Assembly: GCA_004366205.1 (NCBI GenBank)
Contig: SIRW01000015.1
Span: 1-41,796, forward strand
Reading direction: 5' to 3'
Origin: Actinomycetota bacterium
Lineage (GTDB): Bacteria > Actinomycetota > Acidimicrobiia > Acidimicrobiales > CADCSY01
DNA: 41,796 nt
Numbering within the stretch: position 1 is the first letter of the stretch; every line of letters starts with the position of its first letter. The translations under genes and the position numbers were made by a program. Of the stretch, positions 8,790-31,839 are shown one piece after another. The notes below the pieces were generated by a model that was not told the origin of the DNA, made no database searches, and was given only the letters and a program-made list of their open reading frames with translations.

Positions 8790-9671
8790 TCAGTAGAGCT
8801 TCTCGCGCTGCACGAGGTGCACGAGGAACTCGCGGAACTCGGGGCCGACGTCGTCGCGGGCGAGGGCGATCTCGACGGTGGCGCGCAGGTAGTCGACCTT
8901 CTTGCCGATGTCGTAGCGGCCGTGCTCGAACACGTAGCCGTACACGGTCTGCTCGGCGCGGAGCAGCTCGATGGCGTCGGTGAGCTGGATCTCCCCGCCC
9001 TTGCCCGGCTGCACCCGGTCGAGGGCGTCGAAGATCTCGGGCGTGAACACGTAGCGGCCCATGACCGCCAGGTTCGAGGGCGCCTCGTGCGGCTCGGGCT
9101 TCTCCACGATGCCGGCGACGCGGACGAGGTCGTCGTCGACCTTCTCGGGCCGGACGCAGCCGTAGGCGCGCATCTCCTCGCGCGGGAGCTCCTTGAGGGC
9201 GATGACGGACCGGCCGTACTGCTCGTAGACGCCGAGCATGGCCCGCAGGACCGAGGCGTCGATCATGATGTCGTCGCCCAGCAGGACGGCGAAGGGCTCG
9301 TCACCGACGTGCTGGCGGGCCACGGACACGGCGTGGCCCAGGCCGAGCGGCTCGCCCTGGCGCACCGAGTGGATCGTCGCCAGCTGCGCGAGCCGGCGCA
9401 CCTCGGCGGCCTCGTCGTGCTTGCCGCCCGCCTCGAGGTGGTGCTCGAGCTCGAGGGCCCGGTCGAAGTGGTCCTCGATGCTCTGCTTGCCCCGCCCCGT
9501 GATGATGAGCACGTCGTCGATCCCGGCGGCGGCGACCTCCTCGATGACGTACTGGATGGCGGGCTTGTCGACGACGGGCACCATCTCCTTCGGCTGCGCC
9601 TTGCTGGCCGGCAGGAAGCGGGTACCGAGCCCGGCGGCCGGGATCACCGCCTTGCGCACCGGTCTCGTCAT
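8790..9671 (-). CDS. galU: UTP-glucose-1-phosphate uridylyltransferase
   Basis: The 293-residue protein opens with KAVIPAAGLGTRFLPASKAQ followed by PKEMVPVVDKP, the nucleotide-binding signature of GalU/RmlA transferases. It continues with LGDDIM (metal aspartates), GIVEKP and a late FEHGRYDIGKKVDYLRA. It makes UDP-glucose for cell-wall glycans, trehalose and exopolysaccharide. The ATG at 9671 overlaps the stop of the diguanylate cyclase upstream as ATGA. The longer open frame to 10184 is out-of-gene sequence antisense to nothing functional and lies inside that cyclase in another frame. The coupling links a sugar-nucleotide enzyme to c-di-GMP signalling. Confidence 0.95.
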   Translation of the reverse strand: MTRPVRKAVIPAAGLGTRFLPASKAQPKEMVPVVDKPAIQYVIEEVAAAGIDDVLIITGRGKQSIEDHFDRALELEHHLEAGGKHDEAAEVRRLAQLATIHSVRQGEPLGLGHAVSVARQHVGDEPFAVLLGDDIMIDASVLRAMLGVYEQYGRSVIALKELPREEMRAYGCVRPEKVDDDLVRVAGIVEKPEPHEAPSNLAVMGRYVFTPEIFDALDRVQPGKGGEIQLTDAIELLRAEQTVYGYVFEHGRYDIGKKVDYLRATVEIALARDDVGPEFREFLVHLVQREKLY

Positions 9672-16607: not shown

Positions 16608-17723
16608 TCACCCCTCCGCGTCAACGGCTGCGACCTCGGTCTCGGTCACCCGGTGCTCGTCCGCGAGCGTGCGGAAGCCTCGTCCCCGGATCGCGCTGAG
16701 GTCGCCCTGGATCACGTCGTCGCCGGTCGGACGCTCGACGCTGATGGCGTCACCGACGTCCACGAGCTCGTAGGAGACCGTGCGGGCCCGGACGGGGTCC
16801 TCGCCCATCGTCTGGCGAAGGTGGTTGACGCTCGTGATGAGGAACTCGCTGAGCTGGTGCTCGGGCACGCCCTCGAGGGCCTGCTCGAACTGGGCGAGGG
16901 TCTCGCGATCGCTGTCGAGGAACGTGCGGATGTAGCGCACGAAGTTCTCCGCGATCTCGCCCGTGGCGGCGATCTGCTCCATGACCCGGATGACGACGCC
17001 GTCCTTCACGTAGACCGACATCTTGCGGAAGTGGTGAGGCCCGGCGATCGCTTCGGAGGCAGCCGTGGCCTGGTCCGCCCGGGGGAACCACGGCGTGACG
17101 TAGTCGTACCGGATGACGCCCGAGCCGTCCTCGGGTGTGGGGAAGGGATCCTCCGAGGGCCTGTAGTCGAGCGACTCGGGGTTGTAGCGGGTGATGGCAG
17201 CGGCTCGGCTGATCATCTGCTCGGCGTAGCGCAGCACGCTGCGGGCGTCCCGGATCGGGTCCTCACCGAGCGATTCGTTGATGTCTCCGGTTCGCAGCAC
17301 CGGCGGGGCGCCGTGGGGGTCGTGCACCCAGCGTCGGGCCTCGAGGGCGTCGACGACCCGCACGCCCTCGATGGCGGTCTCCTCGCCCCGGCCGGCCCCT
17401 GATGCCAGCATCGCTCGCACGCCCTCGGGCTGCGTGAACCGCATCCAGAGCTCGTCGTCGACGACCACCTCGTCCAGGACCGGTCGCCCACCCCTGGTCA
17501 GCCGGGCGCGATAGCGGAAGTCGTCCTCGACCTCGCCCTCCACGACGGTGGTGACCCCGTCGTGGACCTCCTGGTACACGAAGCGGTGGGCCAGGTGCTC
17601 GGTGCGGCGCAGGGCCTGGCGCAACTCGGCCTCGGCGTCCTCGCCACCGCCGCAACCGGCCAGCACCGCGGCGCCCACGACGGTGGCCATCAGGGTGAGG
17701 AGGAGGTGATGCCTCCCGGTCAC
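16608..17723 (-). CDS. Lipoprotein, last gene of the Liv/MoxR operon
   Basis: The 371 residues start with a lipoprotein signal (lipobox LAGC, Cys24), followed by an extracellular domain. Segments such as FVYQEVHDGVTTVVEGEV, DDFRYRARLTRGGRPVLDEV and VVDDELWMRFTQPEGV suggest a curved beta-sheet that could resemble LolA/LprG-type lipoprotein carriers (inference; I cannot confirm it). The rest, with YVTPWFPRADQA and HFRKMSVYVKDGVVIRVMEQ, is similarly beta-rich. The GTG at 17723 overlaps the stop of the lipoprotein upstream (GTGA), so it is the final coupled member of the operon that begins with moxR. Function unknown. Confidence 0.8.
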   Translation of the reverse strand: MTGRHHLLLTLMATVVGAAVLAGCGGGEDAEAELRQALRRTEHLAHRFVYQEVHDGVTTVVEGEVEDDFRYRARLTRGGRPVLDEVVVDDELWMRFTQPEGVRAMLASGAGRGEETAIEGVRVVDALEARRWVHDPHGAPPVLRTGDINESLGEDPIRDARSVLRYAEQMISRAAAITRYNPESLDYRPSEDPFPTPEDGSGVIRYDYVTPWFPRADQATAASEAIAGPHHFRKMSVYVKDGVVIRVMEQIAATGEIAENFVRYIRTFLDSDRETLAQFEQALEGVPEHQLSEFLITSVNHLRQTMGEDPVRARTVSYELVDVGDAISVERPTGDDVIQGDLSAIRGRGFRTLADEHRVTETEVAAVDAEG

Positions 17724-18226
17724 GGCTTCACCTCCAGCAGGGCGCGCAGCAACGCACGGGGCCGCGGGTAGTCCTCCCGCACGGACAGCACGAACATGTG
17801 GGCGTCGTCGAACCAGACGCTGATCTGCTGCTGGCGGCCCCGCGTGATCCACACGGTGTGCTCACCGACGCGGTGCACCTGGGCGGTGCCGATGCGGTTG
17901 ACGATCGCCCGCCGGAACTCGCCGGAGGTGTGGTCGGCGTCGTCGGCGAAGCGCGACACCTGCAGCGTGGCTTGCAGGAGGTCGCCGTCACGGAAGCTGT
18001 AGAGCCCGACCGCCTCGACGTACGGGCGCCGGGCCTGGGCCAGGAGGCTCGCGACGTCCTCCTCGCCGACGGTCAACCCCAGCACCTCGCCGGGAAGGGC
18101 GGCGTCGGCCAGATGGGCGATCCGCCGCTCCTCGCCCGCCGCGGGGCCGTCGTCGCCGCAGGCGGCGAGCACCACGGCGGCGGCGACCAGCACGGCGACG
18201 AGGGGGACGCGGATGCGCGCCGTCAC
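17720..18226 (-). CDS. Small lipoprotein of unknown function
   Basis: The 168 residues carry a lipoprotein signal (lipobox LAAC, Cys23), then GDDGPAAGEERRIAHLADAA and an alpha/beta domain with YVEAVGLYSFRDGDLLQATL, FADDADHTSGEFRRAIVNRI and QQISVWFDDAHMFVLSVRED. The repeated strands look like a compact sheet, but I do not recognise the family. The GTG at 18226 overlaps the stop of the cupredoxin-like gene, and its own stop overlaps the next lipoprotein. Its place between two other lipoproteins suggests a role on the outer face of the membrane beside the permease (inference). Confidence 0.8.
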   Translation of the reverse strand: MTARIRVPLVAVLVAAAVVLAACGDDGPAAGEERRIAHLADAALPGEVLGLTVGEEDVASLLAQARRPYVEAVGLYSFRDGDLLQATLQVSRFADDADHTSGEFRRAIVNRIGTAQVHRVGEHTVWITRGRQQQISVWFDDAHMFVLSVREDYPRPRALLRALLEVKP

Positions 18227-18768
18227 CCGGCGATGACCTCGACGTAGCCGACGGCGTAGGGGCGGGTGCCGTCGCTGTAGTTGAAGCGGCCGACCTCGTT
18301 GGCGACCCACTGCCAGGTACCTCCGGGTGGGATGGGACCGGAGTCGAACCACCCCTCGTCGCTGACGACCGAGCGGGCGACGCTGTCGGCGTTCTTCCAC
18401 ACGATCACCGAGCCGGTGAACACCCGGGCCGCGGGCGGCTGGAACTGCGAGCGCTCGGTGTCGCCGGCGATGCGGATCTCGAGCGTGGCCCGCTGCTCCT
18501 CCTGCTGGGGCGGGGCCTCGGGCGGCGGTGCGTCCTCATGGGCCTGGGGCGGAGGCGCCTCCTCCGGGGCCGGCGGCGGGGCCTCCTCGGGGGCCTCCTG
18601 GGGCGCGACGGTGGTGGGGGCGAACGGGTTCGCCTGCTGCTTCTGCTCGAAGGTGAGCAGGTCGTCGCTGCCCACCCGGGTGCCGTCGCCGCACGCCGCG
18701 GCCACGAGGGTGAGCGCCACGGCGATCGCGGTGAGCAGCGGTCGGGACGTGGTGAGACGTCGTGTCAT
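18223..18768 (-). CDS. Cupredoxin-fold lipoprotein lacking copper ligands
   Basis: The 181 residues have a lipoprotein signal (Cys26), a linker rich in Pro, Glu and Ala (about 48-93), and a plastocyanin-like domain (95-181). The domain keeps GSVIVWKNADSVARSV and the F-x-Y-x8-10-G pattern of type I copper proteins. At the ligand positions, however, it has Arg132 in place of the first His, Asp166 for Cys, Arg169 for the second His and Ala172 for Met, while Gly174 is kept. Copper binding and electron transfer are therefore unlikely. A binding or structural role is inferred. ATG 18768 overlaps the stop of the large transporter fusion (ATGA). Confidence 0.82.
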   Translation of the reverse strand: MTRRLTTSRPLLTAIAVALTLVAAACGDGTRVGSDDLLTFEQKQQANPFAPTTVAPQEAPEEAPPPAPEEAPPPQAHEDAPPPEAPPQQEEQRATLEIRIAGDTERSQFQPPAARVFTGSVIVWKNADSVARSVVSDEGWFDSGPIPPGGTWQWVANEVGRFNYSDGTRPYAVGYVEVIAG

Positions 18769-21700
18769 GTCAGGCTCCCGGAGCGTTTCACGGCGGCCTC
18801 CGAACCGCCGAGGTAGGACTCGATGACGCGCTCGTCGTCGAGCACGTCGTCGGGACGGCCGCGGACGACCACCGCGCCCTGGTCGAGGGCGATGAGCTCG
18901 TCGGAGACGGCCGAGATCAGGGGCATGTCGTGCTCGATGATCAGCAGGCTGCACCCGGTCTCGTGGCGGACCCGGCGCAGGAGAGGGGCGAGGCCCTCGG
19001 CCTCGGCCTGGGCGATGCCCGAGGAGGGCTCGTCGAGCAGCAGCACGCGGGGCTCGGCGGCGAGCACGCAGGCCACGTCGACGATGCGGCGCAGCCCGGT
19101 GGACAGCTCGCGGACGTACTTGTCGCGGAAGGCCCCCAGCTCGAACAGCTCGATCAGGCGGTCGGCCCGCACCCGCAGGCGGCGCTCGGCTCGACGAGCC
19201 CGGGGCACCTGGGCTGCGGTGAGGACCGTGCTGCGCACCTCGAGGTGCTGCTCGAGGGCGACCAGCAGCGTCTCGGTTACGGTGAGGGAGGGGAACAGCC
19301 GGGCGTCCTGGAAGCGACGGACTAGGCCCTGCTTCGAGCGCTCCTCGGGGCCGGCACGGGTGATGTCGACGCCCTCGAGGACGACGCGGCCCTCGTCGGG
19401 CTGCTGGTAGCCGCTGATGAGGTCGAACAGGGTGGTCTTGCCGGCGCCGTTCGGCCCGATCAGGCCCAGGACCTCGCCCTCGCGCAGTGCGAAGCTGACA
19501 CCGGCGACGGCGGTGACCCCGCCGAAGCGCTTGTGCAGGTCGTGCACCTCGAGCACGGGACGGGCCACCTCGAGCTCGTGACGGCGGCGGGCCGCGGCCG
19601 GGCCGGCAGCGGCGGGACCGCTGGTGAGCGCACCGGTGCCTTTCACGTAGACGGCTCGCAGGATGTCGGGCCGGGCGAGCAGGTCGGCCGTCTTCCCGAA
19701 GAACCGCACTTCGCCCTTCTCCATGAAGATGGCCTTCTCGGCGAGGTTCAAGGCGACGTTCACCGACTGTTCGACGACGACGACGGTGACGCCCCGACGG
19801 TTGATCTCGCGCACGACCTCGAGCAGCTGGCCAACGACGGCCGGGGACAGGCCGAGCGACAGCTCGTCGATCATCAACAGGCGCGGCTTGGCCAGGAACG
19901 CCTGCGCCAGCGACAGCATCTGCTGCTCACCGCCGGACAGGTCACCGGCGAGCTCGCCGGCCCGCTCCCGCAGGATCGGGAACACCTCGAGGACCTCAGC
20001 GACGCGCTCGGTCAGGTCGGGAGCGTCGTGGGTGACCCAGGTGCCGAGCAGCAGGTTCTCGCGGACGGTCAGCCCGGGGAACACGCCCCGCCCACCGGGC
20101 ATGTGGATGACGCCGCGTGCGGTGACCTCGTGGGGCGGCATGTGGGTGATGTCGCGGCCGTCGAACACGATGGCGCCGGCGGACGCCTCCTGGGTGCCGC
20201 TGATCGCCCGCAGCAGCGTGGACTTCCCGGCGCCGTTGGTGCCCAGCAGGGCGACGATCTCGCCTTCCTCCACGTCGAAGTCGACGCCGAACAGCACCTG
20301 CACGCCGTCGTACTCCACGTCCACGTCCCGGCAGACCAGCAGCTTGCCCTTGCCCTCACGCTTGGCCTTGCGCCACTCCTCACCGGCGAGCGCGGTGGCG
20401 AAGGCGTTGCGCATGTCGAGCTCGAAGAACCCGGCGGCCGTCATCTGGATGAGACCGCCGACGAGGAACATGGGCGCACAGAAGAGGAACACGGCCGGGT
20501 AGCCGTACTCGAAGTGCAACATGGAGGCGACCTGCAGCCCCACGACGAGGCCGGGCAGGGCGGCGAGGCCGGTCATCTGTATGCCCATCACGCGCACGGT
20601 GGGCGGGATCACCTGCGAGTAGATCGCACCCGTCGCCGGCCCGACGAGCGCACCACCGAATGCGGTCAGCACCGCGAAGGCGATGATCAACCCGAGGGGT
20701 GGCTGGGAGGCGTAGCCGAGCACCCCGACGGCTGCAACCAGCGGGAACGCCCCCACGACCAGTAGCACGCGACCCGGGTGACGGCGCACGAACACGTCGA
20801 CGAGCCCGCCGCCGAGGAAGTTGCCCAACACGGAAGCGACGACTGCCGGTGTGAAGACCCAGGCCCGCGCCCACGCATCGAGGCCGTAGGCCTCGGCCAG
20901 GAAGAAGACGAAGAAGAGCCCCGCGGCGGAGGAGGCGGCGCTGGTGAAGATCGCGCCGGTGACCACCCGTCGCACGGTCCGGACCGCCCAGACGGTTCGC
21001 CACGACTCCCCGAACGAGAGGGGCTCGTCCTCCACGCGGGCCGTGGCCTCGTCGCTGCCCAGGGCCTTGCGCTCCATGTAGCCGCGGATCGGCTCCCGCA
21101 ACGTGAGGGTGGCGGCGATGCCCATGAGCACGAGCGGCACGCCGAGGATGACGAAGCCGGCACGCCAGCCGACGGTGACGACGAGGATGCCGGCGGTCAG
21201 CGGGGCGAGGACCGTGGCGCCGTTGCCGAGCATGCCGAGGAGGGCGAAGGCCCGTCCCCGCGCCTCGGGGGGGTAGTAGTCGGCGATGAGCGCGAACCGC
21301 GGCACGCCGCTGGCCTCGTCGCTGACCTGGTCGCCCACTCGGGCGGCGCCGAGGGTGAGGGAGCTGCCGGCCCCGCCGGTGAGCATGGAGAAGACGCCGG
21401 AGGTGATCGTGCCGATCGTGACGAAGGGAACCCGGCGGTGGCGGTCGGCGTACCACCCGGCGAAGATCGCCGCGAAGATGCTGACGATGGCGACGATCTG
21501 GAGCACGCCGATGATCGTCCCGACGTTGATCTCGAGATCGCGAGCGACGTCCGGCGCGGCGATCTGGAACCCGAAGGTGTCGAGCACCTGGAAGAAGGTG
21601 ATGAGCCCCAGCACGACCGCAGGCTTCATGCCGTAGGGCGTGTGGGCGAGCTCGCGCCAGGCCATGGCGCGGCGGAGCACGCCGCCCTCGTCGGCCGCGG

Positions 21701-21857
21701 GCGGGAGCTGGGGTTCGGGCAGCTGCTCGGGGGCCTCCTCGATGGCGATGGCCAGCCGCTCGGCGGCGCTGAGCTCGCCGACGCCCAGCTCGACGGCCTC
21801 GCCCGCCCGGTTGCCGGGCCCGCTGGTCCCGTGCTCCCCCATGCCGTCCTCCCTCAT
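18765..21857 (-). CDS. Triple fusion: MFS permease + LivF-type ATPase + LivG-type ATPase
   Basis: One 1030-residue chain contains three parts. First is an MFS transporter (about 78-480) with motif A GWYADRHRR (134-142). Second is a LivF-like ABC ATPase (about 506-735): Walker A GTNGAGKST 539-547, signature LSGGEQQ 640-646, Walker B MIDE ending 665, and VEQ in place of the H-loop His, as is normal for LivF. Third is a LivG-like ATPase (about 768-1018): Walker A GPNGAGKTT 801-809, signature LSTGLRR 918-924, Walker B LLLDE ending 943, H-loop His976. LivF and LivG normally are separate proteins that power amino-acid uptake through LivHM, whose fused permease is the next gene upstream. The start at 21857 overlaps that gene (ATGA), but GGGAGGA at 21847-21853 better serves the ATG at 21842. 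No frameshift or stop separates the parts. Confidence 0.93.
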   Translation of the reverse strand: MREDGMGEHGTSGPGNRAGEAVELGVGELSAAERLAIAIEEAPEQLPEPQLPPAADEGGVLRRAMAWRELAHTPYGMKPAVVLGLITFFQVLDTFGFQIAAPDVARDLEINVGTIIGVLQIVAIVSIFAAIFAGWYADRHRRVPFVTIGTITSGVFSMLTGGAGSSLTLGAARVGDQVSDEASGVPRFALIADYYPPEARGRAFALLGMLGNGATVLAPLTAGILVVTVGWRAGFVILGVPLVLMGIAATLTLREPIRGYMERKALGSDEATARVEDEPLSFGESWRTVWAVRTVRRVVTGAIFTSAASSAAGLFFVFFLAEAYGLDAWARAWVFTPAVVASVLGNFLGGGLVDVFVRRHPGRVLLVVGAFPLVAAVGVLGYASQPPLGLIIAFAVLTAFGGALVGPATGAIYSQVIPPTVRVMGIQMTGLAALPGLVVGLQVASMLHFEYGYPAVFLFCAPMFLVGGLIQMTAAGFFELDMRNAFATALAGEEWRKAKREGKGKLLVCRDVDVEYDGVQVLFGVDFDVEEGEIVALLGTNGAGKSTLLRAISGTQEASAGAIVFDGRDITHMPPHEVTARGVIHMPGGRGVFPGLTVRENLLLGTWVTHDAPDLTERVAEVLEVFPILRERAGELAGDLSGGEQQMLSLAQAFLAKPRLLMIDELSLGLSPAVVGQLLEVVREINRRGVTVVVVEQSVNVALNLAEKAIFMEKGEVRFFGKTADLLARPDILRAVYVKGTGALTSGPAAAGPAAARRRHELEVARPVLEVHDLHKRFGGVTAVAGVSFALREGEVLGLIGPNGAGKTTLFDLISGYQQPDEGRVVLEGVDITRAGPEERSKQGLVRRFQDARLFPSLTVTETLLVALEQHLEVRSTVLTAAQVPRARRAERRLRVRADRLIELFELGAFRDKYVRELSTGLRRIVDVACVLAAEPRVLLLDEPSSGIAQAEAEGLAPLLRRVRHETGCSLLIIEHDMPLISAVSDELIALDQGAVVVRGRPDDVLDDERVIESYLGGSEAAVKRSGSLT

Positions 21858-24172
21858 GAGCCCGCCGGCTCCAGGTCCTCGGCCCGCCGGGCCGCGGCGC
21901 TGAGCGCCGCGGTGTCCTGGGATTCCCGCTTGGGCCCCAGCTTGTCGACGATGCGTTCTCCGGCGCCCTTGTAGAGCTCGGAATCGAGAGCGAAGCGGCT
22001 GCCGCCCGTGGCCAGGTCAACGCCGGCCGGGGCGCCCCCGAGCGGGATCAGCCGGCGCTCCATGGCCTCGGGGTCGTAGTCGGCGAACAGGCTCGGCACC
22101 ACGATGTGGCGCCGCTGGGCGATGATTCGCAACACGGCGTCGCGGGCGTTGAAGAGCAGTGCGGCTACACCACCGGGCGAGGCGTAGAGGAGGTACAGGG
22201 TCACGCCCGAGGTGACCACGGTCTGGAAGAGCTGGCTGCTGAAGAAGTAGCTGATGCCCTGGAAGTAGGCGGCACCGATCAGGGCGCCGGTCACCGACCC
22301 GACACCGCCGAACATCGTCAGGATGAACACGTTGATGCTGGCAGCGACGCCGTAGCTGCCGGCGCTCAGGCCACCCTGGTGGTGCACGAAGATGGCGCCG
22401 GCGAAGCCGGCGAGCATGCCGGAGACGGCGAAGGCCATGAGCTTCGTCCGAACGGCGCTGACGCCGAAGGATCGCAGGTTGGTGTCGTTCTCGCGCACGG
22501 CGATCACCAGCCGGCCGAAGCGGCTCCTGCGCAGGTTCACGACCACCGTGACGGCCAGGACCAGCGCGCCCACGCACAGGAAGTACATGGAGCGCTCGTC
22601 GGTGAAGTCGAGGAAGAACAGCTCGGGGCGCTCGACGGCGTCGGGGAGCAGCCACCCGAAGTAGCGCTCCTCGAACAGCACGCTGCTGACCGCCACGGCG
22701 AAGGCGAACGTGGTGACCAGCAGGAGCAGGCCGGGGAGGCGTAGGGCGGGTATGCCGATCAGCACGGCCACACCGCCCGCTGTGGCCGCGGCGATGGGGA
22801 CGGCGAACCAGAACGGGATGCCGACAGTCGCCGTCAGCACGGCGGCGGTGACGGCTCCGACGGCGACGAAGGCGAACTGGCCAAGGCTCACCTGCCCGGC
22901 CCAGCCGGTCAGCACCACGAGCGACAGGGCGACGATGGCGACGAGCGCGATCACCCCGCCCAGGTTCTGGACCTGCACGCTCGTCACGAACGGGAGGATG
23001 CCGACGAACGCCAGCCCGAGGGCCACGAGCACGACTCGACCGACCCGCACGGCGGTCACCTCGAGCAGCGGGGTCGGGATCGGCCGCGGCTCCTCCGTGG
23101 CCTGCCACGACGAGCTCTCGGCCTGGGCCTCACTGCGGCCGGCGCGATTGCGGTGGCTGAGCAGCCCCCCCACGATCAGCGCGAGCAGGGCGGCGTCGAC
23201 CAGGCCCGGGTCAGCCTGGAAGCTGTGGTTGAACGCTTGGGTGAGCACGCCGATGAGCACGGCGGCGAAGGCCGCGGCGGGGATGCTGCGCATACGGGCG
23301 AGGACCGCGGCGGTCAGAGCAGGCAGCAACAGACCGGGCGAGTAGCCGGCAGCCGTGGCGGGGGTGTGGAGGGCCCCGGTGAGGATCTGCGAGACCCCGC
23401 TGAGCACGCCGGCGAGCGCCCACACGATGCACGAGAGCAGGCCCACACCGATGCCGAGCAACGAGGCCCGCTCGCCGTTCTCCGCCATGGCGCGCATGGC
23501 CACGCCGAACCGGGTGTAGCCCAGGAACGCGCCGAGGGCGAGGAGCGTGATCAGCGAGAGCTCGAGGGCGAAGACCTCGGGAAAGCCGAACGGCAGCGAG
23601 AAGCCGCCGATGGTGAACTCCCACCCGGCGAAGGGCAGGTAGTCGCGCGATGCGAGGGCGCCGCTGATCTCGGAGATCGTCCGTTCCTCGGGCGAGGGGA
23701 AGAACGGCAGGTTCATGATGCCCTGGCGGAGATCGGTCGCCATGAGCGCAGCCAGCACGATCGTGAAGACCGTCAGCACGAGGCGTGGTGCCCGGGAGAA
23801 CCGCAGCAACACCAACCCCACCGCGAAGCCCACCAACCCCGAGACGAGCAGGCCCAGCACCAACGCCACGGGAAACGGCACCGGGGTGAACTGGACGAAC
23901 TCGAACACCAACGTGGCGCCGGCGATGCCGAGGGCGGCCTGGGCGAAGTTCACGACCCGCAACGTGCGGTACACCAGCACGATTCCCGCCGCGGTGACGG
24001 CGACGATGGCCCCGGCGACCAGGCCCTCGAACAGGATGGCGGCGGGTGTGCCGCGCCCGGCGCCCGTGCCGGGCAGGACGAGCTGGGTGACGGCGAGCGC
24101 GCCGAGAACGCTGGCCACCACGAGGGCGACGTGGCGGGTGCGCGAGCCCGGCGGGAGGAGGCGGGCGAGCAC
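21854..24172 (-). CDS. Fused LivH-LivM branched-chain-amino-acid-type ABC permease
   Basis: The 772 residues join two permeases. The LivH half (about 1-345) has GLVAGAIVAVTAAGIVLVYR followed by TLRVVNFAQAALG, and GVAMRAMAENGERASLLGIG. The LivM half (about 380-700) has GWAGQVSLGQFAFVAVGA and the ATPase-coupling loop VIAVRENDTNLRSFGVSAVR. A charged 70-residue C-terminal tail (about 700-772) has no Liv counterpart that I know. The whole would form the membrane channel for the LivF/LivG domains encoded next. The GTG at 24172 follows the lipoprotein stop by one base, with GGAGGAC upstream. Substrate is unknown: Liv-type systems carry amino acids, urea or other small organics. Confidence 0.92.
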   Translation of the reverse strand: MLARLLPPGSRTRHVALVVASVLGALAVTQLVLPGTGAGRGTPAAILFEGLVAGAIVAVTAAGIVLVYRTLRVVNFAQAALGIAGATLVFEFVQFTPVPFPVALVLGLLVSGLVGFAVGLVLLRFSRAPRLVLTVFTIVLAALMATDLRQGIMNLPFFPSPEERTISEISGALASRDYLPFAGWEFTIGGFSLPFGFPEVFALELSLITLLALGAFLGYTRFGVAMRAMAENGERASLLGIGVGLLSCIVWALAGVLSGVSQILTGALHTPATAAGYSPGLLLPALTAAVLARMRSIPAAAFAAVLIGVLTQAFNHSFQADPGLVDAALLALIVGGLLSHRNRAGRSEAQAESSSWQATEEPRPIPTPLLEVTAVRVGRVVLVALGLAFVGILPFVTSVQVQNLGGVIALVAIVALSLVVLTGWAGQVSLGQFAFVAVGAVTAAVLTATVGIPFWFAVPIAAATAGGVAVLIGIPALRLPGLLLLVTTFAFAVAVSSVLFEERYFGWLLPDAVERPELFFLDFTDERSMYFLCVGALVLAVTVVVNLRRSRFGRLVIAVRENDTNLRSFGVSAVRTKLMAFAVSGMLAGFAGAIFVHHQGGLSAGSYGVAASINVFILTMFGGVGSVTGALIGAAYFQGISYFFSSQLFQTVVTSGVTLYLLYASPGGVAALLFNARDAVLRIIAQRRHIVVPSLFADYDPEAMERRLIPLGGAPAGVDLATGGSRFALDSELYKGAGERIVDKLGPKRESQDTAALSAAARRAEDLEPAGS

Positions 24173-24173
24173 G

Positions 24174-25220
24174 TCAGTCCTCCTCGGGGAGCGGGTCGGG
24201 CTCGATCTGGGCGATGGTGTGCTCGATCTGGTAGCTGCCGATGGCGGTGACGGCCTCGGTCGCCTCCATCAGCAGGATGCCGCCCAGGTGCGGCGCCACG
24301 ATGTAGCGGTACGGCCGGGCGGGAGCACCGGTACGGGTGAGGGTGCCCTCGACCAGCCAGCCCTCGAGGATCTCGCCGCAGGCGTCGACGCGGTCGCGGC
24401 CCACGACCTTGGCCTGCAACTGCATGGCCTGGCCGCTGCGGGGGTCGACACCGCCGGTGCTGTACTCCTCGCCGGGGAACACTTGCAGCGGCAAGATGAG
24501 GATCGCCGGGATCGGGGCGAAGACCGAGACCACGTTGCCGTCGTCGTCGAGTCGCTCCTCGCGGACGAGGGACACCCCGCGGTCGGGCTCACCCGTCCGG
24601 GCCTCGAAGGCGAGGGCGTTGGCCCGGCTCGACCGGGCGTCGGTGCGAACCCGGAACGTCCTGATGACGAGGTCGCCGGGCCCCGTCTGGCTGAACTCGC
24701 GCTCGACGGTCTCGAACGTCCACGTCGTGGGGTTCACCACCTCGACGTTGCGGACGAGGCGGTTGCGGAACAGGTCGATCGGCAGTTCCTGGTCGACACC
24801 GGTGAGGCGCTGGGTGCCCTGAGAGCGCCAGCGCCACAGGCCTTCCGCGGGAGGCTCCTCGGCGTTGAGCGGTGCGGTCTCGGCCGGGAAGGCGTCGATC
24901 GCAGCCGGCGGGCACTCCCGGCGCTGGGCCACGGGCGGCAGGACGTCGAGGAACGAGCGGTCCTGGTCCTGCATGCGGCGACCAGGCACGGGAGCACGCG
25001 TCGACGCCAGACCCGGCCGCACGGCCGCGCCCGCTCCGGGGTCGCCCCCGGGCGCGAGATCGTCGCCGGGCTGCTCGACACCGAAGGCGATGTCCGCCTG
25101 CAGCCGCTCAACGCCGACACCCGCTTGGCGGTCGCTGCCGCACGCGCCAGCCAGCAACGCCACCAGCACCAGCAACCCCGCGGGCCGCAGCCGCCTAGCC
25201 CTAGCCGTGGACGAGGGCAT
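24174..25220 (-). CDS. Lipoprotein encoded between the transglutaminase-like and permease genes
   Basis: The 348 residues have a lipoprotein signal (Cys27 in LLAGACGSD). The mature part has no family I recognise, but strands such as PTTWTFETVEREFSQTGPGD, GNVVSVFAPIPAILILPLQV and RYIVAPHLGGILLMEATEAV suggest an extended beta fold similar in style to the other large lipoprotein at the operon end. ATG 25220 has GAGAGGAG about 7 nt upstream, which decides the start, and it lies 20 bases inside the end of the transglutaminase-like gene. The stop is one base before the permease GTG, so expression is tightly linked to both. Confidence 0.8.
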   Translation of the reverse strand: MPSSTARARRLRPAGLLVLVALLAGACGSDRQAGVGVERLQADIAFGVEQPGDDLAPGGDPGAGAAVRPGLASTRAPVPGRRMQDQDRSFLDVLPPVAQRRECPPAAIDAFPAETAPLNAEEPPAEGLWRWRSQGTQRLTGVDQELPIDLFRNRLVRNVEVVNPTTWTFETVEREFSQTGPGDLVIRTFRVRTDARSSRANALAFEARTGEPDRGVSLVREERLDDDGNVVSVFAPIPAILILPLQVFPGEEYSTGGVDPRSGQAMQLQAKVVGRDRVDACGEILEGWLVEGTLTRTGAPARPYRYIVAPHLGGILLMEATEAVTAIGSYQIEHTIAQIEPDPLPEED

Positions 25221-27507
25221 CGCCGCGCTCCTCTCTGGTCTGCGCGCCGGTACGGCGCCGACGACGCTCACCCCTGCGGGTGAGGTCGGTGGCCGGGGCG
25301 TAGGGGTTGCGCATGGACAGGCGCGAGACCATGCCGACGGCCCGCAGGGTGGCCGACTGCGTGGCCGAGAGGCGTCGCCGCAACGAGCGCGACAGCGTCT
25401 CGGCGATGGTCGCCATCTCCGGCGTCGTCCGGTGCCGGAGGTCCCCCCAGAGGCACCGAGTGGTCAGCCAGGCCAACTCGGTGTGCTCGTCGTCGTCGAC
25501 GAAGCGGTCGAGGAACATCAACGGCGTGTCGTTCGGAGCCGAGTAGCCCAGGTCGGTGGCATGGTCCCGCCACTCGGCGTAGGCGAGGGCGATGCGGGCG
25601 CGCGGACCGGCCGCCGCGGCGGCGGTCCGCCTCCGCGCCCGCGCCCGGCTCTTCGCCAGGGCGGGATAGAGCGTGTAGGCGCCGACCGCCAGGGTCGAGA
25701 CGACCATGATCACGAGGACCACGAGCAGGATCTGGCGGGCCAGGTCCGACCCCGGGGGGATCAGGACCGGCAGGTGCAGCTCGATGGCGATGTCGTCGCT
25801 CGGGACGATGTTCGGGTCGACCTGCTGGAAGTCGTCGCTGCTCATGCTGGGCTGCGCCTGCTGGGGCGTGCCGATGACGGGTAGCCACTTGAAGCCCGGG
25901 AACCACACCTCCACGAACGAGGCGCCGTGGCGGGGCCGCACCTGCAGCCGGCCCTCGACGAGGTCACCTTGGTCGTAGCCGTAACCGATGCGGGCCGGGA
26001 CCCCCGCCCACCGGGCGAGCATCGCCTGGAGGGCCACGATCTCGTACGGCGATGCCTGCAGCGTCTCGCCGATGATCTCGTCGGCCCGGTCCGGTGTGAT
26101 GCTCACGGGCGTGCCCATGCCGCTGGCCACCACGTTCTCGAGCACCCAGGTGCGCAGGTAGTCGAAGGTGTCCCACAGGTTGTCGGTGGCGCCGAACGCC
26201 TCGGTGAGCAGGGCCCGCACCTCGGGTCCCGGCTCGGGGATCTCCAGGAAGCGCCGCATGGCGGCGGGGACGCTGCCGTCGACGGCGCGCAGGTCGTCGA
26301 GCGACGGCAGCGCGGCGGCGGCGACGGTGTAGGTCAGGCCGGGCTCGATGCTGCCCTGCGCCAGCCGGATGCTGCCCGTCCGCGGGTCGTAGGACAGGCG
26401 GGGGCCCTCGGCGACGATGCCCACCGTGTTGGGGAGGCCGGGGAGCACGGCGCCTCCCAGCCCGGCGACGGTGAAGGTGGCCCGGACACCCGGCTGCAGG
26501 TCGCGGTCGACGACGCCGTCGCGGGGCACCTCTCGCAGCTCGCTCTCGGCGAAGGCCGGCAGGCGCCAGTCCTCGCCGTCGTAGACGTCGAGGCTGCCGA
26601 TCCGCCAGGGGCCCGACAGGATCGAGTCGACCTCGAACAGCACCCGGTCCTCGACTTCCGACAGGGGGACCGTGCGGGGCCGCTGGGGCTCCTGGGTGGG
26701 GTCGATGAGCGGTGGGGGGAACAGGAAGTTGGTCTGGGCCAGCGCCACCAGTGCCACGGTGACCACGGCGAGCAGCGGCAGGGCCTTGGCGGCCTTGCGC
26801 AGCTCGTACGCCAGCGGCGGACGCTCGTCCTCGGCGCCGGTCGACTGCTCAGCCGACAGGAGCCCGAGGCCGACGGCGAACAGGACGACGACCACGATGC
26901 CGCTGATGATCTGGGCGTCCTCGGGGACGCTGATGGCAGCGATCGCCGCGGTGGGCAACGGGATCAACAGCGCGATGGCGGGGCGGCGGACGACCAGCGC
27001 GATCCACGCCGTCACGAACCCGATGATCCCCATCGTCCACCCCACGACGGCGCGCCAGCCCGTCAGGTAGTCGACCGGCGGTCGCAGCACGTCGCCCTGG
27101 GCCGCGGCCTGCGCGACGAGCGCCCGGACCGACGTGACGTTCCCGAGACCGTCGAGCACCAGGAACGCCAGACCGATGCTGAACAGGCCCGCCAGCACGA
27201 GAGCGTTCGTGAGCACCGCCCGGCCGCGGAGGCGGGCGAGGCCGGTCGCCAGCGCCACGCCCAGGATGCCGGCGAGGGTGGCGTCGACCCGCGGGGCGAC
27301 ACCGAGGAACACCCCGCCGACCATCACGGCGCAGGCGACCACCGGGAACGCCATGGCCACGGCGAGGCGCAGCGAGGCCTGCTCGAGCTCCTCGGAGGTG
27401 CCCGTCTCGCCGGCCGCGGCATCCCCGGCCGCCGGGTCGGCGGCGGATTCGGGCGCCGCCGTGGCACCGAGGTCGATCCCCGTGGTCTCGTCGGTCGTGG
27501 TCGCCAT
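25201..27507 (-). CDS. TgpA-like membrane protein with degenerate transglutaminase domain
   Basis: The 768 residues follow the TgpA layout common beside MoxR and DUF58: several membrane helices (about 45-260), an exported region, a transglutaminase-like core (about 440-550), one more helix (about 590-615), and a cytosolic C-terminal domain (about 640-768). The core retains RWAGVPARIGYGYDQG and ASFVEVWFPGFKWLPVIGTP. The catalytic triad is gone: the usual Cys falls at Pro487/Tyr488, the His at Ala529 (His527 is two residues off) and the Asp at Ile545. It is probably a non-catalytic peptide or protein binder. ATG 27507 shares a base with the DUF58 stop (TGATG). Confidence 0.88.
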   Translation of the reverse strand: MATTTDETTGIDLGATAAPESAADPAAGDAAAGETGTSEELEQASLRLAVAMAFPVVACAVMVGGVFLGVAPRVDATLAGILGVALATGLARLRGRAVLTNALVLAGLFSIGLAFLVLDGLGNVTSVRALVAQAAAQGDVLRPPVDYLTGWRAVVGWTMGIIGFVTAWIALVVRRPAIALLIPLPTAAIAAISVPEDAQIISGIVVVVLFAVGLGLLSAEQSTGAEDERPPLAYELRKAAKALPLLAVVTVALVALAQTNFLFPPPLIDPTQEPQRPRTVPLSEVEDRVLFEVDSILSGPWRIGSLDVYDGEDWRLPAFAESELREVPRDGVVDRDLQPGVRATFTVAGLGGAVLPGLPNTVGIVAEGPRLSYDPRTGSIRLAQGSIEPGLTYTVAAAALPSLDDLRAVDGSVPAAMRRFLEIPEPGPEVRALLTEAFGATDNLWDTFDYLRTWVLENVVASGMGTPVSITPDRADEIIGETLQASPYEIVALQAMLARWAGVPARIGYGYDQGDLVEGRLQVRPRHGASFVEVWFPGFKWLPVIGTPQQAQPSMSSDDFQQVDPNIVPSDDIAIELHLPVLIPPGSDLARQILLVVLVIMVVSTLAVGAYTLYPALAKSRARARRRTAAAAAGPRARIALAYAEWRDHATDLGYSAPNDTPLMFLDRFVDDDEHTELAWLTTRCLWGDLRHRTTPEMATIAETLSRSLRRRLSATQSATLRAVGMVSRLSMRNPYAPATDLTRRGERRRRRTGAQTREERGDALVHG

Positions 27508-28820
27508 CAGATCCGGTTCCCCGCGCCGATCTCGCCGTACAGGGCCGACGCCAGGTCCTGGCCCGGTCGCACGGATGCCACCTGGCAGCCGAGCGAGGCG
27601 GCGACACCCGCGGTGTCGGCACCCTGCTCGTCCCACAACAGGGCCACGACCAGCACCGACACGCCGGTGTCGAGCAGCAGCTTCAGGCGGGCGGCCTCGT
27701 CGGGGCCGAGCCGGGGTGTGACCAAGATGTTGTGGGCGTCGCGCCGCGGCGACGCCACCAGCCGCATGATGGCGGCGGAGAGCGGCTGGCGCTCCATGTC
27801 GAGCCGGGCGAGGGCGTCGAGCAGCAGCAGCTGGGACGTGGCGCCGCGCAGGGGACGGGTGAGCGGCCCGCCGTTCACCTCGCAGCGCAGCTCGTAGCCT
27901 TCACGCAGGTGGCGCACACCGAGGGAGGCCGCGACCCGCACACCCGCCTCGAAGGACTCGGAGAGCCCCTCCTCGTCGCGGCTGTGGGCGCCCCGGTCGG
28001 TGTCGAGGATGATCGTGATGTGGTCGGTGATGCCCTGCTCGGCCTCGCGCACCATGATGGTCCCGGTGCGGGCCGACGCCCGCCACACGATTCGCCGCAG
28101 GTCGTCGCCGGGCTTGTACTCCCGCATGCCGTAGAACTCCATGCCCGACGGCCACGGCTTGGAGACCGGCGGCCGGATGGGCGGGTCTTCGAACTGGCGC
28201 GTAAGTGGCCGGTCGGAGACCAGCTCGACGCGGGGGTGGACGAGCAGCTCGAAGGGCTCGGCGATGACGGTCTCGCGCTCGGAGAGCCCCAGCGGGTCGC
28301 CGGCGACGGCGACCAGCGGGCCGACCTGGTACACCCCGCGCCGGCTGGCCCGGAGGCCGTAGCGGTGCGTCACGGTGGAACCCGGCGACAGGCGGGTGAT
28401 CGGGACCTTCACCGTGCGGCCGAGGCGGTCGGGCACCCGCTCCTCGAGCACGAACGTGGAGACCCGGCGGTTGGCCGTCAGGGACAGCTCGACCTCGAGG
28501 CGGTCACCCTCGTGCACCCGAGGGAAGAGGCCCTCCCGCGCACCCTCGAGCTTCAGGTTGCGGGGCGCGATCAGGTAGCTGATGACGATCAGCAGCACCA
28601 TGCCGTAGGCGAACAGGTACATGCCGGTACCGGCCACGACCCGGGCCATGATCCAGATGGCGACGGCGCCGACGATCGCGATCTGGCCCGACCGGGTGAT
28701 GCCCAGACGCCGCTGGAGCGACCGAGCGCGCTCACGCAGCGCGCGGGGCCCGAGCGCGTCGGTGACGCGGTCGAGGCGCGCCCTGAGCCGCCTGCCGGAT
28801 GCCGCCCCGGACCGGGCCAT
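27507..28820 (-). CDS. DUF58 protein
   Basis: The 437 residues comprise a basic N-terminus, two membrane helices (about 45-85), a beta-rich part (about 90-200), and the DUF58 signature MREYKPGDDLRRIVWRASAR with a following VWA-like region (ITIILDTDRGAHS, where the usual DxSxS is DTD). DUF58 proteins are encoded beside MoxR ATPases and transglutaminase-like membrane proteins and are thought to act with MoxR as chaperone-like assembly factors (family knowledge, mechanism unsettled). It begins at ATG 28820, two bases after the moxR stop, and shares a base with the start of the next gene. Confidence 0.92.
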   Translation of the reverse strand: MARSGAASGRRLRARLDRVTDALGPRALRERARSLQRRLGITRSGQIAIVGAVAIWIMARVVAGTGMYLFAYGMVLLIVISYLIAPRNLKLEGAREGLFPRVHEGDRLEVELSLTANRRVSTFVLEERVPDRLGRTVKVPITRLSPGSTVTHRYGLRASRRGVYQVGPLVAVAGDPLGLSERETVIAEPFELLVHPRVELVSDRPLTRQFEDPPIRPPVSKPWPSGMEFYGMREYKPGDDLRRIVWRASARTGTIMVREAEQGITDHITIILDTDRGAHSRDEEGLSESFEAGVRVAASLGVRHLREGYELRCEVNGGPLTRPLRGATSQLLLLDALARLDMERQPLSAAIMRLVASPRRDAHNILVTPRLGPDEAARLKLLLDTGVSVLVVALLWDEQGADTAGVAASLGCQVASVRPGQDLASALYGEIGAGNRI

Positions 28821-28822
28821 GG

Positions 28823-29857
<1,035 letters not shown>

Positions 29858-30045: not shown

Positions 30046-31839
30046 GTGGGTACCACGCCGGACTGGCCCCGGAAGTACCCCCCGCTGCTGGCGATGCTGG
30101 TCGCGCTCGTCATCGCCGTGTTCGTCATGCCATCGGCGCTGAACCTGCCGCAGACCAACCCCGAGCAGACGCTCGAGTTCGCGCCCGTCCCCCCCGAGGA
30201 CGACGACCCGCCGCCGCCGGCCGACGGCAGCCTGGCCTCGCTGGGCCTGGCCAGCTCACCGGGCTTCGCGGCCGACGAGGGGCAGGGCCCGGGCCAGCTC
30301 CCCATCCCCCTCGAGCCCGACGAGATCCTCACCAAGACGCCCTCCACCAAGCGCTGCGTCGGCGACCCGCCCCGCCAGACCGAGGACCCGCTGTCGCCGC
30401 CGTGCGTGGCGTTCTTCGACGGCGACAACTTCGGCGAGACCTACCAGGGGGTCAACGCCGAGGAGATCCGCATCCTCTTCTACATCGAGGGGTTCACGAC
30501 CTACCTGACCCGCAGCCAGGGCAACGAGAGCACGCCCGACCAGCAGATGTTCGACCTGTGGGAGCCTCCGGCCGACGACGAGCACGTCATCGTGCGGGTG
30601 CTGCGCGTGTGGCAGCGGTACTTCGCCGATCGGTACCAGACCTACCGGCGGGTGCCCCACTTCTACGTGTACTTCAGCGGCAGCGACTCGAGCCCCGAAG
30701 CCCGGCGTGGCGACGCCATCGCCAACTTCAACGCCGTCGAGCCCTTCGCCGTCCTGAACTACGCGCGCGAGAACGCCGACGCCTACCTCGAGACGATGGC
30801 CCGCCGGGGGGTGCTGAACTTCGGCTCGTACCTCGGGCGCTCCGAGTCGTTCTTCAACCAGTACCCCCGGATGATCTGGGGCTACTACCCGTCACTCGAG
30901 CAGCAGGCCCGCCAGTACGCCAGCTTCGTGTGCCAGAAGGTCGTGCCGCACCCCGTGAGCTTCAGCGGCAACAACGACCACGGCGAGCCACGGCGCCTCG
31001 GCATCGTCTACACCACCGACGAGGGCCAGCCCCAGCTGCGCCGGTACAAGGACGAGGTGGTGCGCCTGATCCGGGCGTGTGGCGGCGACATCGTGGCCGA
31101 GGGCACCTTCCCCTCGGCGGGCTACGCCCAGGACAACCGCTACCCACCGCGCTACGCCATGGCGACCATGGTCGACTTCCGGGACAAGGGCGTCACGACG
31201 ATCCTGTGGCCGGGCGGGCTCGAGACCCAGCAGTCACGCGCCGCCGCGCAGCTGAACTACTACCCGGAGTGGATCATCTCCGGTGACCAGATCATCGAGG
31301 GCACCAGCAACAACCAGCTCCAGGACCAGGAGGCCTGGCAGCACGCCTGGGTCGTCACGAACGTCGTGAAGGAGGTGGGCCTGGACGACTCGCTGTGCTT
31401 CCAGGCCTACCGTGAAGCCGACCCCAACGCGCCCCGCACCGACGCCCAGGACGCGTGCAACTTCTACAACGACCTGCGCCAGCTCTTCATCGGCATCCAG
31501 GTCGCCGGGCCCCGGCTGGGCCCGACCTCGATCTACCGGGGCTTCCAGGCGATCCCGGAGATCCCGAGCAACGACCCGCGGGTCCCTGCCTGCTTCTACC
31601 TGCCCGACGACTACACCTGCATCAAGGACGCCGCCGCCTGGTGGTGGGACCCGACCGGCCAGGCACCGGGCGGCACCGGCCCCGGCTGCTGGCGCCTGGG
31701 CGACCACGGCCAGCGCTACCTGGCCGACGGGTGGCCCGAGGGTGACGTGCTGACGATGCGCCAGCCGGACAACCCGTGCGGCGGCTACGTGGCGCCGCGG
31801 ATCATCAACCCGAACCCACCGAGCCCGGAGAACATCTGA
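30046..31839 (+). CDS. Membrane-anchored periplasmic-binding-protein-like protein
   Basis: The 597 residues begin with one hydrophobic segment (about 14-33, LLAMLVALVIAVFVMPSAL) that lacks a lipobox, so it is probably a signal anchor. An acidic Pro-rich linker follows, then a long extracellular domain. Segments such as EEIRILFYIEGFTTYLT, RRLGIVYTTDEGQPQLRRYK, FRDKGVTTILWPGGLETQQS and YYPEWIISGDQIIEGTSNN resemble the two-lobed type I binding proteins of Liv transporters. It is longer than usual (about 380-400) and has several cysteines. GTG 30046 is the first possible start after TAG at 30004. It lies opposite the LivHM/LivFG operon and is the likely substrate receptor (inference). Confidence 0.82.
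   Translation: MGTTPDWPRKYPPLLAMLVALVIAVFVMPSALNLPQTNPEQTLEFAPVPPEDDDPPPPADGSLASLGLASSPGFAADEGQGPGQLPIPLEPDEILTKTPSTKRCVGDPPRQTEDPLSPPCVAFFDGDNFGETYQGVNAEEIRILFYIEGFTTYLTRSQGNESTPDQQMFDLWEPPADDEHVIVRVLRVWQRYFADRYQTYRRVPHFYVYFSGSDSSPEARRGDAIANFNAVEPFAVLNYARENADAYLETMARRGVLNFGSYLGRSESFFNQYPRMIWGYYPSLEQQARQYASFVCQKVVPHPVSFSGNNDHGEPRRLGIVYTTDEGQPQLRRYKDEVVRLIRACGGDIVAEGTFPSAGYAQDNRYPPRYAMATMVDFRDKGVTTILWPGGLETQQSRAAAQLNYYPEWIISGDQIIEGTSNNQLQDQEAWQHAWVVTNVVKEVGLDDSLCFQAYREADPNAPRTDAQDACNFYNDLRQLFIGIQVAGPRLGPTSIYRGFQAIPEIPSNDPRVPACFYLPDDYTCIKDAAAWWWDPTGQAPGGTGPGCWRLGDHGQRYLADGWPEGDVLTMRQPDNPCGGYVAPRIINPNPPSPENI

Follow-up and report, generated by a model that had tools for sequence, protein, structure and literature searches.

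We describe here a gene that encodes, on a single polypeptide, an MFS secondary carrier and the LivF- and LivG-type ATPases of an ABC importer. The gene lies on the minus strand at 18765..21857 of the window, i.e., the whole stretch of 41,796 nucleotides analyzed. In frame translation, it begins with ATG; as stated in the original prediction, in which the strand was absent, it runs for 1030 codons with zero internal stops. Pfam recognizes MFS_1 (2.4e-33), two ABC_tran domains (1.8e-61) and, weakly, BCA_ABC_TP_C at the end of the 1030-aa protein. Together with the motifs, these domains bear out the idea of a secondary carrier fused to LivF- and LivG-type ATPases, and the MFS motif A, the two complete Walker A/B sets and the LivF and LivG signatures claimed from the sequence were all located in the fusion. 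In an AF2 model (mean pLDDT 85.4, pTM 0.77), TM12 is bridged to LivF by a continuous helix formed by residues 475-500. The features are as follows, with residue numbers referring to the fusion.

18765..21857, minus strand: whole fusion gene, 1030 aa, in the order MFS, helical linker, LivF-type NBD, linker, LivG-type NBD
21648..21857, minus strand: N-terminal extension, residues 1-70, mostly low-confidence or disordered (AF2 pLDDT mostly <55)
20436..21647, minus strand: MFS domain, residues 71-474, 12 helices, Spns-like fold (Pfam MFS_1, profile and structural match)
21432..21458, minus strand: MFS motif A GWYADRHRR, residues 134-142, containing D138 and R142
21273-21293, minus strand: ALIADYY, containing D193 (MFS alignment)
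20346..20435, minus strand: MFS-to-LivF junction, residues 475-504, predicted continuous helix at 475-500 (AF2 pLDDT about 90)
19644..20345, minus strand: LivF-type NBD, residues 505-738 (Pfam, motifs; structural match to 1ji0, Z 34.9)
20217-20243, minus strand: LivF Walker A GTNGAGKST, residues 539-547 (motif search)
19920-19940, minus strand: LivF signature LSGGEQQ, residues 640-646 (motif search)
19848-19880, minus strand: LivF Walker B and catalytic Glu, LLMIDELSLGL, residues 660-670 (motif search)
19563..19643, minus strand: LivF-LivG linker, residues 739-765 (AF2 confidence low around 738-750)
18768..19562, minus strand: LivG-type NBD, residues 766-1030 (Pfam, motifs; weak BCA_ABC_TP_C)
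19431-19457, minus strand: LivG Walker A GPNGAGKTT, residues 801-809 (motif search)
19086-19106, minus strand: LivG signature LSTGLRR, residues 918-924 (motif search)
19017-19046, minus strand: LivG Walker B and catalytic Glu, VLLLDEPSSG, residues 938-947 (motif search)
18924-18938, minus strand: LivG H-loop IEHDM (motif search)
21854..24172, minus strand: fused LivH-LivM permease, 772 aa, two BPD_transp_2 stretches (Pfam), upstream gene
30046..31839, plus strand: probable substrate-binding protein of the system, with N-terminal TM anchor, low-complexity linker and LivJ-type fold, divergent and about 6 kb away

Several lines of evidence support that the join is genuine. GC3 lies between 0.81 and 0.99 across all segments of the fusion and does not shift at the MFS-LivF junction. 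Moreover, paralogues in the same genome, with 43-46% identity, span both junctions in one frame, and the identical junction is seen in independent assemblies; thus, a chance or assembly join is ruled out. The source assembly is fragmented (119 contigs), as would suit an assembly error or a missed stop that welded separate genes; however, the junction is repeated not only in the paralogues but in many independent assemblies, and the MFS-LivF join is present in the isolates Embleya scabrispora and Catenulispora rubra. On this homologue evidence, we reject an artefact and give it practically no credence. The original prediction would have fallen had homologues been uniformly split, with an artefact at the junctions here; instead, the order MFS-LivF-LivG recurs among them. 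The only apparent split in the first homologue set is in L060, where MFS, linker and LivF start still share one frame. We rejected L060 as a naturally split homologue because its LivF Walker A is interrupted by a frameshift at about 9340-9362, which is either a sequencing error in this MAG or the mark of a pseudogene.

The fusion is widespread among relatives. In the same genome, there are seven more full-length MFS-LivF-LivG paralogues and one MFS-LivF protein (L132). A pattern scan with one genome per species gathered many relatives, mostly from MAGs of Acidimicrobiia and other Actinomycetota and including the two isolates; the fusion is also carried, unannotated, by a plasmid record of Embleya (H1). 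Domain models on the loci of these relatives distinguish two architectures, i.e., type A, with MFS-LivF-LivG and a fused LivHM, and type B, with MFS-LivF and LivHM-LivG. Between MFS and LivF, the distance is near-constant: most type A proteins have 17 positions here and most type B proteins 19-20. The junction residue D481 is kept in at least 90% of alignment rows. When the phylum was sampled evenly, MFS-LivF was found in at least 16 of 296 genomes, and such counts are minima because at most four candidates per genome were scored. Type B loci from several records labelled Bifidobacterium breve (L069, L070, L079, L089 and L100) group with Acidimicrobiia-type MAG sequences, and these labels look wrong.

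The partner of the fusion is encoded next to it. LivHM had been put forward as this partner, and the adjoining gene does encode a fused LivH-LivM permease, the stop of which overlaps the ATG of the fusion by 4 nt (ATGA); the same overlap is found in 23 of 25 type A operons checked. In the family alignment, membrane-anchored proteins of roughly 540-630 aa (SBPx) accompany these operons, and in L043 SBPx is likewise divergent, about 3.4 kb from LivHM. The window copy had no match in Pfam, and the SBPx profile gave only low-complexity matches to PDB sequences; it was fold comparison that settled the identity, as the AF2 model of the window copy (pLDDT 78.8) led Foldseek to Leu/Ile/Val-binding proteins (E 2e-12). 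The SBPx profile also matches Peripla_BP_6-type proteins of type B loci with a probability of 98.6%, and in type B a binding-protein gene lies near MFS-LivF in 29 of 49 loci, usually divergently. The SBPx family, i.e., the window protein and about 14 paralogues, is membrane-anchored, mostly with a Gly-rich linker, and has conserved cysteines; Pfam finds 3 of 27. Altogether, as judged by sequence and predicted structure, the permease set, two NBDs and a LivJ-fold binding protein make up a full importer without counting the MFS.

The substrate of this importer need not be branched-chain amino acids, because the NCBIfam equivalog cut-offs are not reached for either LivG (318.4 versus 362) or LivF (260.2 versus 441); the UrtE cut-off is passed, but by a score that sums two domains. 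The LivF domain of the family carries the signature LSGG[EQ]QQ, while in the LivG-type domain LSTG[SLT]RR is the rule with or without an MFS. The unusual LSTGLRR signature had been taken to suggest asymmetric nucleotide sites. The signature itself is real; however, it is not a consequence of the fusion, since MFS-less relatives have it too, and we reject the fusion as the cause of the asymmetry. By these alignments, signature asymmetry belongs to the LivG lineage.

The MFS domain resembles Spinster transporters. A profile search ranked HnSpns first (best PDB match 6e8j; E 2.4e-39), followed by Spns1, DgoT, EfpA and Spns2, and in VIA-align the best-ranked structure was human Spns1 with LPC (Z 40.1, 410 residues, 2.9 Å), followed by Spns2 (Z 38.8). 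In Spns proteins, motif A forms a charge relay of Asp(TM2)-Arg(TM3)-Asp(TM4) (PMC13192786). D138, R142 and D193 align with the relay positions and are invariant in 42 of 42 aligned MFS domains; the TM1 acid is present in 40 and the TM4 Arg in 38 of the 42. At the positions of the Spns proton switch (Asp-Arg in TM1; Arg and Glu in TM4), the window protein has D93, T94 in place of Arg, R173 and, by alignment, D180 in place of Glu. This TM4 Glu position is Lys or Arg in 23 of 42 family members, and with the Glu replaced in much of the family, ordinary Spns proton coupling is not assured. In free-standing relatives, the position is mostly Gln, His, Leu, Lys or Arg, and two keep Glu. Because most free-standing relatives have lost the Glu too, the loss is not particular to fused proteins, and we rejected it as a fusion-specific sign of ATP coupling.

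The MFS behaves as a module. The MFS comes or goes about eight times on a careful tree built from 58 LivF-LivG sequences, one of these changes being the L060 frameshift, and MFS-less copies (e.g., L128, L129 and L130) are nested within MFS-bearing clades; on this tree, loss of the MFS is indistinguishable from regain by recombination. Conversely, on a quick MFS-domain tree, free-standing MFS genes (L194/L201, L195, L196, L197 and L198) branch inside the type A clade at several places and retain the motif A relay. The free MFS gene of L195 has two relevant neighbors at a distance of about 1.4 kb, one for a binding protein and one for an all-in-one LivHM-LivF-LivG protein. Such all-in-one polypeptides of about 1250-1280 aa (L129 4389-8225; L195 12361-16098) hold the whole ABC core in one chain. 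The L200 operon has an individual gene for each of LivHM, LivG, LivF and a more distantly related MFS, and its binding protein is divergent. The parts of the operon also diverge to different extents, with mean pairwise identities among 12 operons of 66% for LivF, 59% for LivG, 45% for LivHM, 36% for the MFS and 30% for SBPx. The adjacent operons 104a and 104b are each other's closest match in all parts except the MFS; they share 82% identity in LivF, 72% in LivHM and 63% in the binding protein, yet only 45% in the MFS, whereas 104a and 104c share 71% in the MFS and 33% in the binding protein; overall, the 104a MFS is 71-80% identical to those of operons whose binding proteins share 33-56%. In L119 (7418-10411 and 16294-19530), L121 and L126, the MFS has apparently been swapped between paralogous operons independently of binding protein and permease.

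Genes for an AMP-dependent ligase, CoA-transferase III, P450, enoyl-CoA hydratase, thiolase and acyl-CoA dehydrogenase lie near some fused and free copies. This neighborhood, taken without a background control in genomes where such genes are common, hints at an acyl or aromatic carboxylate as cargo. In the window, a block of MoxR-like ATPase, DUF58-like and TgpA-transglutaminase genes and lipoproteins, one of them cupredoxin-like, flanks the fusion (24174-29857 and 16608-18768), the MoxR-like and DUF58-like labels being given from sequence appearance only. The block recurs in 7-8 related type A loci and gives no substrate clue.

We suggest, at about even odds, a complete Liv-type (HAAT) importer with a tethered, Spns-like MFS that works autonomously as a secondary carrier, is exchangeable, and is neither a third membrane domain nor driven by ATP. 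With LivH and LivM on one chain, both ATPases on the next and a LivJ-fold binding protein encoded nearby, a full Liv-type importer would run its ordinary binding-protein/ATP cycle. The 12-helix MFS, covalently joined to the N-terminus of LivF via a short predicted helical linker, would move its cargo through its own alternating access, and the fusion would set a 1:1 stoichiometry and a common location. Our assessment applies to the carrier being autonomous and tethered; its cargo and direction are much less certain. The cargo would most likely be an amphipathic organic anion or lipid-like metabolite tied to acyl-CoA catabolism. Since importers whose binding proteins differ greatly carry MFS domains that are much alike, this compound may be a product or counter-substrate common to them and not what the importer itself takes up. 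An autonomous tethered carrier is supported by the completeness of the importer without the MFS (two BPD_transp_2 stretches, two NBDs and LivJ-fold binding protein) and by the Spns-like fold together with the acyl-CoA gene surroundings. At the level of sequence, support also comes from the retained conformational-switch residues, from an MFS that appears optional, able to exist free and exchanged between operons, and from the L200 operon as a second association of MFS and importer. Against it, the near-constant, predicted-helical linker exceeds what a loose tether would need and could mean mechanical coupling, the replaced TM4 Glu speaks against assuming the usual Spns proton coupling, and MFS swapping could result from gene conversion.

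Because the helical junction is so constant, regulatory coupling and ATP drive stay viable. The MFS might sense substrate or product and gate the LivF ATPase through the linker, in a transceptor-like inhibition or activation. A near-constant linker predicted to continue as a helix into LivF would suit such a sensor, as would similar MFS domains across importers of different specificity if they detected a common metabolite; precedents exist in SLC5/STAC histidine kinases, in which a secondary-carrier domain sits on an ATP-using cytosolic module (PMC9100948), and in ABC importers with regulatory domains, i.e., MetNI and ModC (PMC10710835). However, a dedicated sensor for LivF would need neither the full switch machinery nor the free MFS genes that persist, and we regard this reading as unlikely. 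Similarly doubtful to us is a hybrid transporter with primary and secondary transport mechanically coupled, in which ATP hydrolysis would drive or gate the MFS via the helical linker or the MFS would gate the importer.

The original prediction offered two mechanisms, in which the MFS would either serve the Liv complex as a third membrane domain or share the ATPases. Both have become less likely: the LivH-LivM permease set is complete in the next gene, MFS-less forms of this importer recur inside the MFS-bearing clade, and the MFS survives as free genes. More generally, LivF-LivG could power or bias the MFS with an ArsA-ArsB-like dual energy use, making it a primary pump or third membrane domain. 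The covalent junction of near-fixed spacing, always to LivF, and the fact that most members lack the Spns TM4 Glu fit such a pump, but both permease halves are already given by LivHM, and the MFS relatives that exist as free genes have mostly lost the Glu too; we consider an ATP-driven carrier quite improbable. That the MFS is repeatedly absent, split off and swapped could alternatively indicate a mere tether or a near-neutral fusion; the MFS would then be only an anchor, or a by-product of gene joining, functionally unconnected with the importer. However, two architectures are conserved widely across Actinomycetota, and residues of the MFS are conserved as well. Together with co-divergence throughout the operon (MFS-LivHM rho 0.65, MFS-SBP rho 0.63) and the separate operonic association in L200, this makes such a reading rather improbable.

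Primary and secondary transporters are regarded as distinct machines. Throughout this clade, the two repeatedly occur together on a single chain. Natural controls exist in the form of importers without carrier, carriers without importer and carriers swapped between importers, and whether an MFS carrier can be coupled to ABC ATPases is therefore directly testable in this clade.

The system shares LivF- and LivG-type NBDs, a BPD_transp_2 permease pair and a LivJ-fold binding protein with HAAT/Liv importers (LivFGHMK, UrtABCDE), but here the permease halves are fused, the ATPases are fused, an MFS sits on LivF, and the binding protein is divergent and membrane-anchored. Similarly, the MFS shares fold, motif A relay, TM1 acid and TM4 Arg with Spinster proteins (HnSpns, MsSpns, Spns1 and Spns2), and differs from them in the attached ABC ATPases, a mostly replaced TM4 Glu switch and only 15-17% identity to human Spns in structural alignment. 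That a secondary carrier can work with an ATPase is known from the ArsA-ArsB arsenite pump; ArsA and ArsB, however, are separate proteins with unrelated folds. MFS proteins with C-terminal fused domains were surveyed by Willson et al. 2019 (cited in PMC10710835). As far as that citation conveys the survey, those fusions likewise have a cytosolic module on the MFS C-terminus, while the module here is the ATPase pair of another transporter. A literature search that did not take in this survey found no described MFS-ABC fusion, and the MFS-LivF-LivG fusion is apparently undescribed so far. The SLC5/STAC histidine kinases CrbS, CbrA and RpuS (PMC9100948) also carry a secondary carrier covalently on a cytosolic ATP-using module, except that they use another carrier family and a signalling kinase with a STAC domain.
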